From the NCBI GenBank assembly GCA_012519415.1, contig JAAYQG010000141.1, forward strand, positions 1-62,473: a stretch of 62,473 nt of DNA. The letters are read 5' to 3'. Source of the stretch: Treponema sp. (GTDB taxonomy: Bacteria; Spirochaetota; Spirochaetia; Treponematales; Treponemataceae). Positions 22,920 through 62,473 of this stretch are shown in pieces. Position 1 is the first letter of the stretch, and each line of letters opens with the position of its first letter. The translations under genes were made by a program, and so were the position numbers. A model generated the notes under the pieces. The model saw nothing but the letters and a program-made list of their open reading frames with translations, did not search any database and was not told where the DNA came from.

Positions 22920-24035
22920 ATGAAAAAAATGCTTACACTGTGCATTTTGTTGTGCACGACGTTTTTATTTGTTTGCGCACAGGATTTAACTCCTGAAGAG
23001 CAGCGCACAAAATTCATTGACCAATGTAAAGCTTATTTGGGAACTCCTTACAAATACGGAGGAATTTCTAAAACAGGCATGGATTGTTCTGGATTTATTT
23101 ATATTTCTGCAAGACAGGCTTTAGATATAAAGTTGCCACGCCGTGCAGAAGATTTGTATAATGCAACGGAACGTCTTGATAAAGCACAGTTGCAGCCTGG
23201 AGATTTTCTATTTTTTAAATCTGCAAACAGTATTAATCATGCGGCTGTTTACCTTGGTAATGATGAGTTTATACATTCTGCAAGCGATGGTCCTAAAACA
23301 GGTGTAATAATTTCCAAGTTAAGCGATTCTTATTGGGACTCAACTTTTGTAGGCGGTGGAAAATTTTTGCCGGTAGCTACAAATCCTGAAAGAATAGGAC
23401 AAAAAATTGTTGAAAAAGCGGAAGCTGTTTCTGCTACGGTTCCTAAAAAAACAGAACCGGAGGTTCTTCCTGTTGCAGTTATGCCGGATAATGAAGATGA
23501 TTTTGTTCCTGTCGAAGCTGTTCCTGCCGGAACAGAAAATCAAGGCGAAGTATTTACTGCAATTCCGGTTCCCGGTACAATTAGTGCGAACGATGCTTTA
23601 GCAAAAGAAGCTGCAAAACAAAAAGAAGAACTTGCTGCAAAAGAAGCTGCGCTCAAAGAAGCACAAGCTCGTGCAGACGAACAATCAAGAGCACTTGCAG
23701 AAGCTCAAGCCCAGTTAAGGCTTGCACAAGAACAAGCAGCATTAAAAGAAACACAAGCTAAAACAGCTCAAATGCAGTCGCAACAGAGTCTGATAGCCCA
23801 AGAAACAGTGCAAGCTGCAAAAGAAGCGAAAGAAGCAGCTGAAGAAGCAACTGCCGCTGCAAAAGAGGCAACAGCTGCTGCAAAAGAAGCGAAAGCTGCC
23901 GCCGAAGAGGCAACTGCCGCTGCCGAAGACGCAACAATTGCAAGTAAAGATGCTCTTAAAGCTATCAATATGAGCTATCGTTCGATTCTTTCTTTTCCAG
24001 ATGTAACTATTTCCGACGACGGTTTTATTTACTAG
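22920..24035 (+). CDS. Secreted NlpC/P60 endopeptidase with alanine-rich coiled-coil tail
   Basis: 371 residues. A signal peptide (1-20, cleaved after VCA) is followed by an NlpC/P60 domain (about 25-145) with catalytic Cys56 in MDCSGF, His107 in INHAAVYLG and polar His119. These enzymes cut the D-Glu-mDAP/Orn bond in peptidoglycan stems. Next come an acidic, proline/valine-rich linker and a long charged Ala/Glu/Lys/Gln coiled coil (about 225-350) with near-perfect short repeats of the AAKEA/AAEEATAAA kind. The tail may span the periplasm or drive oligomers. GGAGG precedes the ATG at 22920. The lipoprotein gene follows after 1 base. Confidence 0.85.
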   Translation: MKKMLTLCILLCTTFLFVCAQDLTPEEQRTKFIDQCKAYLGTPYKYGGISKTGMDCSGFIYISARQALDIKLPRRAEDLYNATERLDKAQLQPGDFLFFKSANSINHAAVYLGNDEFIHSASDGPKTGVIISKLSDSYWDSTFVGGGKFLPVATNPERIGQKIVEKAEAVSATVPKKTEPEVLPVAVMPDNEDDFVPVEAVPAGTENQGEVFTAIPVPGTISANDALAKEAAKQKEELAAKEAALKEAQARADEQSRALAEAQAQLRLAQEQAALKETQAKTAQMQSQQSLIAQETVQAAKEAKEAAEEATAAAKEATAAAKEAKAAAEEATAAAEDATIASKDALKAINMSYRSILSFPDVTISDDGFIY

Positions 24036-41096: not shown

Positions 41097-42104
41097 TTAG
41101 TACTTACAAGCTAAAGGTCTGATTGCAAAACAGCTTTTTGCAACTTCATCAAAAACTTGCGGTGTTAACGATTGAGCTCCATCACAAAGTGCGTGTTGCG
41201 GATCGTTATGCACTTCAATCATAAGTCCGTCTGCTCCGGCTGCTGTTGCCGCCATTGCCAGCGGTTTTACAAAATAAGAAATTCCGCAAGCGTGGCTTGG
41301 GTCAATTACAATAGGAAGATGTGTCTGTTTTTTGAGAACAGGAATAATTGAAATATCTAACGTATTTCTTGTTGCATTTTCAAAAGTGCGTATACCTCGT
41401 TCGCAAAGAATTACATTTTCATTGCCACCGGCCATAATGTATTCGACACTCATTAAAAGTTCCTGAATTGTATTTGCAAGTCCGCGTTTCAAAAGAATAG
41501 GCTTTTTAATGCGACCAAGTTCTTTTAGAAGTTCAAAATTTTGCATATTGCGTGCACCGACTTGAATTAAATCAACATCGTCAAAAAGTGGAAGTTGAGA
41601 AAATTCCATAATTTCTGAAACAATCGGCAGTCCCGTTGCTTCTTTTGCCTTCAAAAGATATTCAATTCCGCTAGCTCCAAGACCTTGAAAAGCATATGGA
41701 GAAGTTCTCGGTTTGAACGCTCCGCCTCTTAGCATTGTTGCACCGGATTTTTTTACTTGTTCCGCAATGCTTATAACCTGTTCTTCAGATTCAACCGAAC
41801 AAGGACCGGCTATAATATTAAAAGTTCCGTTTCCGAAATGAACATTTTCAACAGTGATAACGCTGTCTTTCGGATGGAATTTTCTGTTTGCATTTTTATA
41901 TGGTTCTTGAATGCGTTTTACATCTTCAACAATCTCAAGAGAACGAATTAAATCAATATCGACCGAAGTAGTATCGCCTACAAGTCCAAGAACGATTGAG
42001 TTTTCGCCTTCGCTTGTGTGAATTGAAACTCCAAGACTTTTTAGCCAGTTTTGCAAGTTGTTAAACTGAGTTTTATCCGGATTCTTTTTTACAACAACGA
42101 CCAT
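41097..42104 (-). CDS. aroF: 3-deoxy-7-phosphoheptulonate synthase, AroA-Q/Thermotoga type
   Basis: 335 residues. The N-terminal ferredoxin-like regulatory domain (1-75) is of the kind that mediates Tyr/Phe inhibition in the Thermotoga enzyme. The barrel carries IAGPCSVES, LRGGAFKPRTSPYAFQG, QVGARNMQN, LCERGIRTFE and VIDPSHACG. It condenses PEP and erythrose-4-phosphate, the entry step. AGGAGG sits 5 bases before the ATG and directly follows the last hairpin of a repeat unit in the leader. Confidence 0.95.
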   Translation of the reverse strand: MVVVVKKNPDKTQFNNLQNWLKSLGVSIHTSEGENSIVLGLVGDTTSVDIDLIRSLEIVEDVKRIQEPYKNANRKFHPKDSVITVENVHFGNGTFNIIAGPCSVESEEQVISIAEQVKKSGATMLRGGAFKPRTSPYAFQGLGASGIEYLLKAKEATGLPIVSEIMEFSQLPLFDDVDLIQVGARNMQNFELLKELGRIKKPILLKRGLANTIQELLMSVEYIMAGGNENVILCERGIRTFENATRNTLDISIIPVLKKQTHLPIVIDPSHACGISYFVKPLAMAATAAGADGLMIEVHNDPQHALCDGAQSLTPQVFDEVAKSCFAIRPLACKY

Positions 42105-42678
42105 ATTGCCTCCTAATTAAAAAGTTACAGAGAAAACTTCAGTTTTCGAAAGTAACTTTTTACGTGCTTCCGCAGCGTAGCGAGGAAGCACAGTTAATAA
42201 CAAGTTTGCGACGCAAACTAGCACCCTTATAAATAAGTTTGTAAGCAAGTTGTGTTCCTATTTATAAGAACATGATTTACTTACAAAACATACACGAAAA
42301 AAATAGTTTCTGTCAATAGGAATTTTAGTTTCTTTTAAGCATATTTTTGGTTTTTGATCTTAATATTTACGATGCAAGAATCCATAAATATGCTTTTAAA
42401 GTCCCCTATTTATGTAATTATTCTATGCAAACGAAAAGTGCGACGCAATATGAAATTTGCAAATTCTATAAAAAAATATAGCATATTTTTTGTTTTATAC
42501 TATACAAACGTCAAGTTTATTTTGAATTAAACTAACAACTGCTATTAATTTGTTTAGGCAATGCTGGTATTTACGGAATAACCTCTCGGGAAATCGGTTT
42601 TGTCGTAGGGGATTTCCTCTATTTGTAAATCGTTTAACGCTAGATTAAAATTAACTAATTAAGGAATATGGAGGAAAT
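42105..42678. other. Divergent intergenic region, aroF / sugar-binding lipoprotein
   Basis: The aroF side is filled by the four-hairpin unit at 42119-42268. The binding-protein side has AT-rich DNA with a -10-like TATACT near 42496, an imperfect palindrome AGTTTA...TTAAACT around 42513-42532 (possible operator) and a 7-bp hairpin (42589-42595 with 42611-42617) in the leader. No gene. Confidence 0.4.
42119..42268 (-). repeat. Four-hairpin unit in the aroF leader
   Basis: Minus-strand order: CTTATAAATA/TATTTATAAG (42268-42259 with 42235-42226), AGTTTGC/GCAAACT (42219-42213 with 42209-42203), GTGCTTCC/GGAAGCAC (42191-42184 with 42171-42164) and a two-storey hairpin AAAGTTAC/GTAACTTT with inner GAAAACT/AGTTTTC (42159-42121). 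A T-run then AATTAGGAGG lead into the aroF ATG. Hairpins 2-4 match units B and D near 60.8 and 62.3 kb; hairpin 1 has been replaced by a different palindrome. Confidence 0.8.
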
Positions 42679-58206: not shown

Positions 58207-59079
58207 ATGCATACCATTCTTGAAAAACGGCAGCTTTCTGCCGATGTTTTTTATTTCAAAGTCAATGCGCCGGATATTGCCCGCAATCGAAAAGCCGGTC
58301 AATTTGTTCTGATTCAGCTTGATATTGAATATGGGGAACGCATTCCGCTAACAATTGCTGATGCAAATGCAGTTGAAGGTTGGATTGCACTTGTGTTTCA
58401 GACTGTTGGGGCAACGACTTTTTTATTATCACGTAAACAGGAAGGCGATAAATTAGCCGCAGTTCTCGGTCCGCTTGGAAATCCGACACATATAGAAAAA
58501 AAGAACGGTTCTGTAGTAGTAGTCGGTGGTGGTATAGGTGTTGCTCCTTGTTATCCGATTGTTGAAGCTCATAAAAAAATTGGAAACAAAGTAATTGTAA
58601 TTGTTGCAGCGCGTACAAAAGAACTTTTGATTTTTGTTGAAGAAATGAAAGCTATCGCTGACGAAGTTATAATTATGACAGATGATGGTTCAGCAGGTCG
58701 TCAAGGCGTTTCAACCCTTCCGCTTAAAGAAATCTGTGAATCTAAAAACCCTCCCGCTGAAGTTGTTGCAATTGGTCCTCCGATTATGATGAAATTTTGT
58801 GCCGCAACTACAAAACCGTTTAATGTTCCTACAATAGTTTCACTTAACACAATTATGATTGATGGAACAGGAATGTGCGGTTGCTGTAGAGTTTCGATTG
58901 GCGGAAAGACAAAATTCGTTTGTGTTGATGGTCCTGAGTTTGACGGTCATCTTGTAGACTGGGATAATATGATGATGCGTATGAAATCATTCAAGGAACG
59001 TGAAACAGAAGATTTTCACAAATGCAAGTTGCAAGCGCAGGCTGATGCACTTGCAGCAGGAGAGAAAAATAATGTCTGA
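58207..59079 (+). CDS. nfnA: NADH-dependent ferredoxin:NADP+ oxidoreductase, small subunit NfnA
   Basis: 290 residues of the ferredoxin-NADP reductase superfamily: FAD site ERIPLTIAD, NAD loop VVVVGGGIGVAPCYPI, and a C-terminal [2Fe-2S] cysteine cluster GTGMCGCCRVSI ... FVCVDGPEFDG as in NfnA, SudB and PyrK-like chains. With NfnB it couples NADH, ferredoxin and NADPH by electron bifurcation. GGAG at 58195-58198 is 8 bases from the ATG at 58207 (58201 is a less likely start). It overlaps nfnB by 8 bases. Confidence 0.85.
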   Translation: MHTILEKRQLSADVFYFKVNAPDIARNRKAGQFVLIQLDIEYGERIPLTIADANAVEGWIALVFQTVGATTFLLSRKQEGDKLAAVLGPLGNPTHIEKKNGSVVVVGGGIGVAPCYPIVEAHKKIGNKVIVIVAARTKELLIFVEEMKAIADEVIIMTDDGSAGRQGVSTLPLKEICESKNPPAEVVAIGPPIMMKFCAATTKPFNVPTIVSLNTIMIDGTGMCGCCRVSIGGKTKFVCVDGPEFDGHLVDWDNMMMRMKSFKERETEDFHKCKLQAQADALAAGEKNNV

Positions 59080-60562
59080 ATATATTGATTTTAAAACCCT
59101 TGACGCTTCTGCAAAAGCGGAATTTGCAAAACTTGAAGGAAAAAATTTTTCGCCAAAGGAGCGTATGTCAATTCCGCAGCAAATTATGCCGACAGGTGAA
59201 CCGAATATCCGTGCGCGTCAAATGACAGAAGTTGCTTTAGGATATACAAAAGAACAAGCTATTGTTGAAGCAAATCGTTGTGTGCAATGTAAAAATCAGC
59301 CTTGTGTATCCGGTTGTCCTGTAAATGTTCCGATTCCTCAGTTTATTGCAGAAGTTGCCAAAGGGGAATTTAAAAAAGCTATTGATATTATAAAAACAAC
59401 AAATCTTTTGCCAGCTATTTGTGGTCGAGTTTGTCCGCAAGAAAAGCAATGTCAAGAACAATGCACTGTTGGAAAAGTTTTCAAAGATTCGGAAAAAGCT
59501 GTTTCAATCGGACGACTTGAGCGATTTGTAGCAGATTTCGAGAGAGATAATAATTTGCAAACTGTTCCGCAAGTTGCAACTCCGACAAACAAAAAAGTGG
59601 CTATAATTGGTTCGGGGCCTGCTGGTCTTACAGTGGCTGCCGATGTTCGTCGTGCAGGGCATAATGTTACAGTTTTTGAAGCTTTTCATAAAGCCGGCGG
59701 TGTTATGGTTTATGGAATTCCCGAATTTCGTCTTCCAAAATCAATTGTTGAAAATGAAATCAAAATGCTTAAAAAAATGGGCGTTGAATTTCGCACAAAC
59801 TTTTTGGTCGGTCGCACCGGTACGCTTTTTCAGCTTTTAAAAGAACATGGATATGATGCAGCTTTTATTGGTACAGGGGCGGGACTTCCGAAATTTATGA
59901 ATATTGAAGGAGAGAATCTTATCGGGGTTTTTAGTGCAAATGAATATTTGACACGTGCAAATCTTATGAAAGCTTATGATACGGAAAAAGCAAGAACTCC
60001 TCTTTATAAAGCGAATCATGTTGTAGTGGTTGGCGGCGGTAATGTTGCAATGGATGCTGCGCGTATGGGATACCGTTTGGGCGCAGAAGTTGTTGATGTT
60101 GTTTATCGCCGAACAAGGGAAGAAATGCCGGCGCGCCGTGAGGAAATTGCACATGCAGAAGAAGAAGGCGTTAATTTTAGATTCCTTGAAAATCCGGTAA
60201 AAATTAACGGCGATGAAAACGGTCGTGTAAAAAGCGTTACTGTGCTCTCTTATAAGCTTGGCGAACCTGATGAGTCCGGCAGAAGAAGTCCCATACCAAT
60301 TGAGGGCAGTGAACATGATATTGACTGCGATGCTGTAATAGTTGCTTTGGGCAACGGCTCTAATCCGCTTATGGTCAAAACAACTCCCGGCTTGAGTGCA
60401 GACAATAAAGGGCATATTGCGGTAAATGAAAATGGAATGACTTCTATTGAGGGTGTTTGGGCTGGAGGAGATATTGTACTTGGAGCTGCAACAGTTATCC
60501 TTGCAATGGGCGAAGGTCGAAAAGCCGCACTCAGTATAAATGAATATCTTGCCAAAAAATGA
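59072..60562 (+). CDS. nfnB: NfnB, large subunit (GltD-like)
   Basis: 496 residues. The N-terminal ferredoxin-like region has CVQCKNQPCVSGCPV and CGRVCPQEKQCQEQC ([4Fe-4S] clusters). The FAD loop is IIGSGPAGLTVA, the NADPH loop VVGGGNVAMDAAR, and EEMPARREE follows. It is often annotated as glutamate synthase small subunit, but no glutamate synthase large subunit is present, and the coupling to nfnA fits Nfn. It lies in the cytosol and balances redox in fermenters. Confidence 0.88.
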   Translation: MSEYIDFKTLDASAKAEFAKLEGKNFSPKERMSIPQQIMPTGEPNIRARQMTEVALGYTKEQAIVEANRCVQCKNQPCVSGCPVNVPIPQFIAEVAKGEFKKAIDIIKTTNLLPAICGRVCPQEKQCQEQCTVGKVFKDSEKAVSIGRLERFVADFERDNNLQTVPQVATPTNKKVAIIGSGPAGLTVAADVRRAGHNVTVFEAFHKAGGVMVYGIPEFRLPKSIVENEIKMLKKMGVEFRTNFLVGRTGTLFQLLKEHGYDAAFIGTGAGLPKFMNIEGENLIGVFSANEYLTRANLMKAYDTEKARTPLYKANHVVVVGGGNVAMDAARMGYRLGAEVVDVVYRRTREEMPARREEIAHAEEEGVNFRFLENPVKINGDENGRVKSVTVLSYKLGEPDESGRRSPIPIEGSEHDIDCDAVIVALGNGSNPLMVKTTPGLSADNKGHIAVNENGMTSIEGVWAGGDIVLGAATVILAMGEGRKAALSINEYLAKK

Positions 60563-60582
60563 ATTAAACTGATTTTTTAGGG

Positions 60583-60740
60583 TGCAATCAAAACTTTGCC
60601 GGAAAATAGCGTCAAAGTTTTGATTTGCTAAGTTTGCGTCGCAAACTTGTTTATTAACTTGCTGTTTTTCACTGCGTTGCAAAACAGCGTAAAACCTCAA
60701 TTCGGAAGTTGAAACTTCCTCATCGAGGTTTTATAGAAGT
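60583..60740 (+). repeat. Four-hairpin unit A (type I)
   Basis: Hairpin 1 TCAAAACTTTG/CAAAGTTTTGA; hairpin 2 AAGTTTGC/GCAAACTT with loop GTC; hairpin 3 GCTGTTTT/AAAACAGC around TCACTGCGTTGC; hairpin 4 CCTC/GAGG outside GGAAGTT/AACTTCC, then TTTTATAG. The unit is 158 bp. Confidence 0.9.
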
Positions 60741-60899
60741 TGCAATCAAAACTTTGCCGGAAGATAGCGTCAAAGTTTTGATTTGCCAAGTTTGCGTTGC
60801 AAACTTGTTTATTAACTGTGCTTCCTCACTGCGTTGCGGAAGCACGTAAAAAGTTACCTTCGAAAACTGAAGTTTTCTCAGTAACTTTTTATTAGGGGT
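60741..60899 (+). repeat. Four-hairpin unit B (type II)
   Basis: Same hairpins 1 and 2 as unit A. Hairpin 3 is GTGCTTCC/GGAAGCAC with the same TCACTGCGTTGC loop. Hairpin 4 is AAAGTTAC/GTAACTTT outside GAAAACT/AGTTTTC, then TTTTATTAGGGG. Confidence 0.9.
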
Positions 60900-61050
60900 T
60901 GCAATCAAAACTTTGCCGAAGATAGCGTCAAGGTTTTGATTTGCTAAGTTTGCGTTGCAAACTTGTTTATTAACTTGCTGTTTTTCACTTCGTTGCAAAA
61001 CAGCGTATAAACTCAATTCGGAAGTTTCAACTTCCGAATTGAGTTTATAG
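60900..61050 (+). repeat. Four-hairpin unit C (type I)
   Basis: Like unit A, but hairpin 4 is a perfect 19-bp stem (TAAACTCAATTCGGAAGTT and its complement) and hairpin 1 has one change that keeps pairing as U-G on the plus-strand RNA. The unit ends in TATAGGGGGG, the ribosome site of the next gene. Confidence 0.9.
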
Positions 61051-61059
61051 GGGGGAATT

Positions 61060-61236
61060 TTGATAGGGACAATCATAGTAAGTACAATTTTAGTTGTAGC
61101 GGTTATTGCGGTAATTGTAAAAATGATATCGGACAAAAAAAAGCGAAAATCTTTTTGCGGTTGCTCTGGTGGGTGCTCCGGCGGTTGCGGAAGTTGTTCT
61201 GCTTGTTCTGAATTTTCTTCTGACGAGAAAAAATAA
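61060..61236 (+). CDS. FeoB-associated Cys-rich membrane protein
   Basis: 58 residues. One N-terminal membrane helix (about 2-20) and a basic turn (DKKKRK) precede a Cys/Gly/Ser cluster CGCSGGCSGGCGSCSAC (33-49), the pattern of the FeoB_associated family found beside ferrous-iron transporters. It probably binds iron at the inner face. No feoB lies in the window. It uses a TTG start at 61060 with GGGGGG at 61050-61055, supplied by the end of repeat unit C. It is easily missed because of the start codon. Confidence 0.75.
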   Translation: MIGTIIVSTILVVAVIAVIVKMISDKKKRKSFCGCSGGCSGGCGSCSACSEFSSDEKK

Positions 61237-62268: not shown

Positions 62269-62425
62269 TGCAATCAAAACTTTGCCGGAAATAGCGTCAA
62301 AGTTTTGATTTGCTAAGTTTGCGTTGCAAACTTGTTTATTAACTGTGCTTCCTCACTGCGTTGCGGAAGCACGAACAAAGTTACCTTCGAAAACTGAAGT
62401 TTTCTCTGTAACTTTTTATTAGAGA
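62269..62425 (+). repeat. Four-hairpin unit D (type II)
   Basis: Same as unit B in hairpins 3 and 4 (GTGCTTCC/GGAAGCAC; AAAGTTAC/GTAACTTT), hairpin 1 and 2 as in all units. Confidence 0.9.
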
Positions 62426-62473
62426 TGCAATCAAAACTTTGCCGGAAATAGCGTCAAAGTTTTGATTTGCTAA
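62426..62473 (+). repeat. Four-hairpin unit E (cut by window end)
   Basis: Begins TGCAATCAAAACTTTG like the others; hairpin 1 is complete and the sequence ends in the first bases of hairpin 2. Its type cannot be told. Confidence 0.85.

Follow-up and report, generated by a model that had tools for sequence, protein, structure and literature searches.

The closest described sequence family is TD-1 RNA (Rfam release 15, RF03155). TD-1 is reportedly described by Weinberg et al. in 2017; it is not mentioned in the 2010 structured-RNA paper. The nearest known kind of element is the MITE, which is short, non-coding, palindromic and high in copy number, and is recognized by target-site duplications and empty sites. 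BOX and RUP of Streptococcus pneumoniae are examples of MITEs, and BOX has a modular build (boxA-boxB(n)-boxC), lies in transcribed regions and has been judged parasitic (PMC3049150). REP/BIME sequences are also extragenic palindromes in clusters. We compared these systems with a tandem repeat on a contig from Treponema sp.; the whole stretch analysed (62,473 nt) is called the window. As far as the open-access literature shows, the sequence family is already known as TD-1 and its nature as a mobile element targeting the Shine-Dalgarno (SD) sequence is undescribed: we found nothing there on TD-1, TD-2 or SD-targeting elements.

As listed in Table 1, positions 60583-61050 hold three 158-bp units (A, B and C) in tandem, each with four hairpins (H1 to H4). 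TRF reported 2.9 copies with a period of 158 at 60583-61035, and direct repeats begin at 60567, 60725 and 60883, plus 62252. The hairpins were found as an earlier reading of the sequence alone (the sequence-only reading) had described them. H1 and H2 are nearly constant over the three units, and the arms of H3 are swapped as it had reported: units A and C have GCTGTTTT/AAAACAGC, and unit B has GTGCTTCC/GGAAGCAC. The H3 loop is indeed kept (TCACTGCGTTGC, with TCACTTCGTTGC in C), but this "loop" holds a 2-bp inner helix, which covaries (AC..GT, AT..AT, GC..GC). The array belongs to a larger set in the window, with a fourth unit (D), a cut fifth unit (E) and a solitary copy on the minus strand. 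Because the gltD stop codon lies about 20 nt before unit A, the array is intercistronic. The gene that follows it starts with TTG 5 nt past the array. The solitary copy has TTTTTAATTAGGAGG as its end, and the ATG of a DAHP synthase gene follows 9 nt later; a different DAHP synthase gene (L072:285-1310) also has a TD-1 leader. Elsewhere in the window, a 21/42/63-bp tandem repeat at 23814-23950 lies within an ORF and encodes an Ala/Lys/Glu-rich sequence.

Table 1 Features of the window that belong to, or flank, the TD-1-type units
Feature	Coordinates	Strand	Remarks
DAHP synthase gene	41097-42104	-	downstream of the solitary TD-1 copy
Solitary H2-H4 copy	42114-42230	-	5'-truncated, without H1
NADPH-dependent glutamate synthase gene (gltD)	59000-60562	+	upstream gene
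Unit A, TD-1-type (H1-H4)	60583-60740	+	TD-1 match 60619-60738, 64.6 bits; 3' end SD-like AGAAG
Unit A, H1	60586-60625	+	outside the Rfam model; homologous H1 in T. denticola elements
Unit A, H2	60630-60648	+	
Unit A, H3	60661-60688	+	type A arms; 2-bp inner helix within the loop
Unit A, H4	60690-60733	+	type a, two-storey
Unit B	60741-60899	+	TD-1 61.3 bits; H1 60744-60783, H2 60787-60806, H3 (type B) 60818-60845, H4 (type b) 60848-60890, SD-like AGGGG 60894-60898
Unit C	60900-61055	+	TD-1 55.8 bits; H1 60903-60941, H2 60946-60964, H3 (type A) 60977-61004, H4 61006-61049; 3' end is SD GGGGGG 61050-61055
Gene for 58-aa FeoB-associated Cys-rich membrane protein (PF12669)	61060-61236	+	downstream of the unit C SD
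Unit D, second array	62269-62425	+	TD-1 55.9 bits; H3 type B, H4 type b; boundaries SD-like AGGA/AGAGA
Unit E, start only (H1)	62426-62473	+	cut by contig end

Hairpins 2-4 and the AGGA that follows them correspond to TD-1 in sequence, structure and strand; the UAUAGGA end before genes and the occurrence in Treponema are also shared. The sequence-only reading knew of no described family, and this claim has to be withdrawn. The Rfam model does not contain H1. Because the elements of the T. denticola group also start with an H1 homologue (GATAAACAG..CTGTTTATC), the full element has four hairpins. Unit A passes the TD-1 gathering score (64.5 bits), and units B, C and D fall short of it, but their full-model matches have E <= 1.3e-7; 13 copies in this genome reach or exceed the score. 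The possibility that only the copies of this array exist had been raised, but the genome contains 87 TD-1 units with pairing kept, which are non-coding, about 158 bp long and arranged in 65 arrays of one to three units. Because many contigs end within arrays (C46, C58, C96, C97, C145, C159, C164, C173, C178 and C179, and the window itself at 62473), copy number and array length in this genome are underestimated. No TD-1 units were found in the seven congener genomes searched (G001-G007). Within the order, 50 of 244 genomes gave TD-1 matches and, among the matches listed, all belong to the same family. With a full-length unit from this genome as the query, matches came from 10 of 20 genera and 89 of 245 genomes within the family. 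TD-2 (RF03162), which is typed as an sRNA gene and shares clan CL00124 with TD-1, matches the opposite strand of TD-1 elements (L039, L040 and L043). The two Rfam entries correspond to the two strands of one DNA element.

Structure statistics were calculated from 67 aligned complete units and 49 pairs. In these units, 95.0% of the cells were paired as compared with 84.6% in shuffles, and the covariation score was 0.319 as compared with 0.136 in shuffled and at most 0.081 in slid alignments. Changes on both sides were observed at 33 of the 49 pairs. Base pairing of the units is thus strongly supported, far beyond chance, and the proposal that pairing survives the arm changes was borne out. A U-G pair in H1 of unit C had been taken as a hint that the plus-strand RNA matters. 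The pair is real, but the hint was not upheld: in this genome, 23 sense G-U cells stand against 33 A-C cells, and the plus strand thus shows no bias towards G-U. The G-U share was 0.7% of element pairs versus 8.8% in 28 T. denticola tRNAs, the comparison being limited to this share because ARAGORN may leave mismatches unbracketed. In the T. denticola group, there were 18 sense G-U versus 4 A-C cells, and this slight excess may reflect a weak RNA-level constraint there. The pairing data from the genome under study do not single out the plus-strand RNA as selected; palindromic DNA or mutational copying of arms fits them at least as well. H4 was considered as a classical terminator, but a terminator scan of the plus strand scored H2 rather than H4.

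H4 has two sequences within units A to C, as had been stated, but at least three genome-wide. The linkage between H3 and H4 types, which had been described as invariable, holds in the few window units only; genome-wide the types are unlinked (A-a 10, A-b 2, B-a 24, B-b 16, C-a 17, C-b 10 and C-g 6). When adjacent complete units were compared with units from different loci, the likeness was higher for the boundary (0.73 vs 0.37), H1 (0.89 vs 0.74) and H2 (0.93 vs 0.85). In contrast, H3 (0.73 vs 0.74) and H4 (0.73 vs 0.79) showed no added likeness within arrays. Moreover, chimeric hairpins were found (for example, H1 at C186:39391 and H3 at C54:6987). Thus, modules are exchanged, as the sequence-only reading had suggested: boundary-H1-H2 is locus-specific and H3-H4 is swapped. 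This pattern is not predicted by serial insertion alone; tandem duplication, after which H3-H4 are exchanged with those of other copies, would give it, as would a template switch at H2.

We examined where the arrays end; neither the ribosome-binding site at the end of the units nor the mobility of the element had been noticed in the sequence-only reading. Of the 65 arrays, nine are cut by contig ends, 52 have an SD and start codon and four do not; because one of these four (C7) is also cut by a contig end, 55 arrays are evaluable. Thus, 52 of 55 run in sense into an SD and a start codon, where about 0.2-1.7 of 55 would be expected by chance with assumed gene numbers. In 43 of the 52, these signals come within 5-12 nt of the array end; in the other nine, another incomplete unit or a short stretch intervenes. 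Arrays whose last unit is incomplete (H1, H1-H2 or H1-H2-H3) likewise end at the SD-ATG. No co-directed gene follows the arrays C57:5330 and C186:39509. According to automatic ORF calls, 41 arrays have a co-directed and 13 a divergent gene upstream; the elements therefore occupy intercistronic as well as promoter-proximal leaders. The downstream genes are mostly metabolic and belong to no single pathway. They include two DAHP synthase genes, PFK, FBA and PK, and the amino-acid genes trpB (two genes), aroDE, ilvC, ilvN, leuD, argC, argD and metE. On one contig, a purine riboswitch (45.2 bits; L091:2693-2822, minus strand) and a TD-1 element before purM were both observed.

Whole loci were queried against sister genomes, and about 0.8 Mb of T. 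denticola (G067) was compared with that of a sister (G009). The first 400 kb of these two genomes are non-collinear, and inverted segments were compared instead. In the T. denticola group, elements are missing from sisters exactly at the SD, and at filled sites the element lies between two SD copies with direct repeats of 7-11 nt. For example, the insertion at G067:72748 is missing in G009, G051, G013 and T. putidum; the empty site of T. putidum is AATAAAAAGTAGGAGGTTATTATG and the filled site is AATAAAAAGGAGGTA..element..GGGAGGTATTATG. A T. putidum locus (TTATTAGAGGT..element..TTATTAGAGGTATAGAATG) is empty in four sisters. Further sites are polymorphic between G067 and G009 in both directions: one is TTTTGGAGGTTGATATG when empty and TTTTGGAGGTT..element..TTTTGGAGGTTGATATG when filled, another has a three-hairpin form between TATGGAGG repeats, and a third filled site reads TATTGGAGGT..element..TATTGGAGGTAGTATG. 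GGAG and the start of the element are 4 nt apart in 21 of 22 copies, and the flanking repeats of this group gave a value of 6.61 as compared with 5.51 +- 0.29 (0 of 2000 permutations). The H1 copies were surveyed over 1.2 Mb of G067 plus 0.8 Mb of G009 (2 Mb in all); of these 33 copies, 28 precede an SD, with an ORF no more than 300 nt away. The distance from element start to start codon falls into steps of about 55-60, 86, 118 and 157-168 nt; one-, two-, three- and four-hairpin forms all exist. In the genome under study, the direct repeats flanking arrays are locus-specific and include the SD (8.59 vs 6.54 +- 0.32; p = 0.0017 without flanks resembling old H4 ends). The elements C54:6987 and C54:5699, on a contig with arginine genes, are missing in congeners, where the orthologous leaders are short. 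Some filled sites, in this genome and in the T. denticola group, have no good direct repeat. No empty site can be read for the window array because synteny ends at gltD, which is followed by a different gene in relatives. A related element, polymorphic between G067 and G009 and away from start codons, has H1 GGGCATCTCTAAAAAC.. and H2 CGAGTTTTT..AAAAACATCGCA, followed by AAGGAG and a terminator hairpin (CCTCTAAAAAC); it may belong to a sister family with terminators as its landing sites.

The units are very probably copies of a small, non-autonomous, MITE-like modular mobile DNA element that targets and duplicates the SD and re-inserts into arrays. The sequence-only reading had named a match to a MITE as one outcome that would tell against it, and a MITE-like element comes close to this. 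The TD-1 element is like MITEs in all the properties given above and like BOX in its modular build. It is unlike them in that it has no clear full-length terminal inverted repeat and no known partner IS, and in that its target, the SD itself, is almost exclusive and oriented. In the window units, no long inverted repeat joins the left arm of H1 and the right arm of H4; the forms with H1 alone are palindromes with the ends GATAAACAG/CTGTTTATC. The Rfam entry, typed Cis-reg, does not describe a mobile element, and tandem arrays, SD-duplicating insertion, forms with one to four hairpins and module exchange go beyond it.

The Rfam type itself corresponds to a different explanation, namely that TD-1 is a leader RNA, the hairpins of which sense something or control downstream translation or termination, with selection on the sense-strand RNA. 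The sense orientation in the 5' UTR, the end at the SD, the strong covariation and the many metabolic downstream genes agree with this idea. However, the insertions are polymorphic between sisters and lie before unrelated genes, no common pathway is strict enough for a regulon, one to four hairpins are all tolerated and G-U pairs show no sense excess and are scarce relative to tRNAs. Thus, we consider a cis-regulatory leader unlikely. A stronger contender concerns the origin of the pairing: the arms may change together by mutation, through template switching that perfects quasi-palindromes and gene conversion among copies, in which case no selection for structure is needed. The near absence of one-step G-U intermediates, the symmetric G-U and A-C counts, the chimeric hairpins and the few discrete arm types, which are common to loci and even genera (H3 type C is identical in a T. 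denticola sister), all point in this direction. Because all hairpins of a unit are perfect at most loci and loss of pairing is rare, we give it somewhat less than an even chance; it is compatible with mobility.

Two other routes of mobilization were considered. The palindromic, intergenic and clustered copies of high number resemble a REP/BIME-type repeat mobilized by a RAYT (Y1) transposase. Transposition by Y1 enzymes is not expected to leave direct repeats at the ends, whereas the elements have them; moreover, they have four distinct hairpins per unit and the SD as target. PF01797 was not matched in the genome under study although it was matched in 5 of 14 control genomes, and a Y1 enzyme of this genome is thereby refuted as mobilizer. 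This explanation is the most improbable of those considered. A SINE-like route, in which a reverse transcriptase copies the leader RNA back into the genome, would give the sense-only orientation and the variable 3' extent, and the somewhat variable length of the direct repeats would also be in accord with it. However, the constant end of the element is the 5' end. RVT_1 had no match in four genomes that carry TD-1, namely the genome under study, G009, T. putidum G071 and G153; reverse transcriptase was rejected as mobilizer on this basis, and we regard retro-insertion as very unlikely. The genome under study thus gave no match to the enzyme that a retron, a group II intron or another RT-driven element would need. 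An integron attC array was considered as well; the TD-1 element is non-coding and has SD sequences as its targets.

On the preferred reading, the element is about 150-165 bp long with four hairpins, of which the conserved H2-H4 are TD-1, and its insertion duplicates about 8-10 bp. In the T. denticola group, it inserts in sense at a fixed place 4 nt downstream of the SD GGAG, and a copy of the SD region (7-11 nt) is left on each side, so that the spacing between SD and start codon stays normal for the gene. The units and arrays in the genome under study, with their locus-specific flanking repeats that include the SD, lie at the same place. Because the SD is restored, landing may be nearly harmless to the gene, and copy number could therefore rise. 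The duplicated SD would be a new target, and arrays may thus be built by further insertions or by duplication between SD copies. The palindromes are probably kept mainly because the mobilizing machinery needs them as DNA.

More tentatively, TD-1 may represent a new kind of mobile element, in which the machinery recognizes the SD as target and the hairpins are interchangeable ends; strings of one to four hairpins would insert one way, each duplicating the ribosome-binding site and neutralizing the insertion. A mobile element that aims at the ribosome-binding site and restores it by duplication would show cleanly how selfish DNA can avoid the problem of harm by its choice of target, and a published family of "cis-regulatory RNA" would be reclassified as a transposable element. 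With this idea, one can test whether such motifs retain their conserved hairpins for the sake of the RNA or of the DNA. Moreover, it would explain how many genes of the Treponemataceae gained long structured 5' leaders while their translation was kept.
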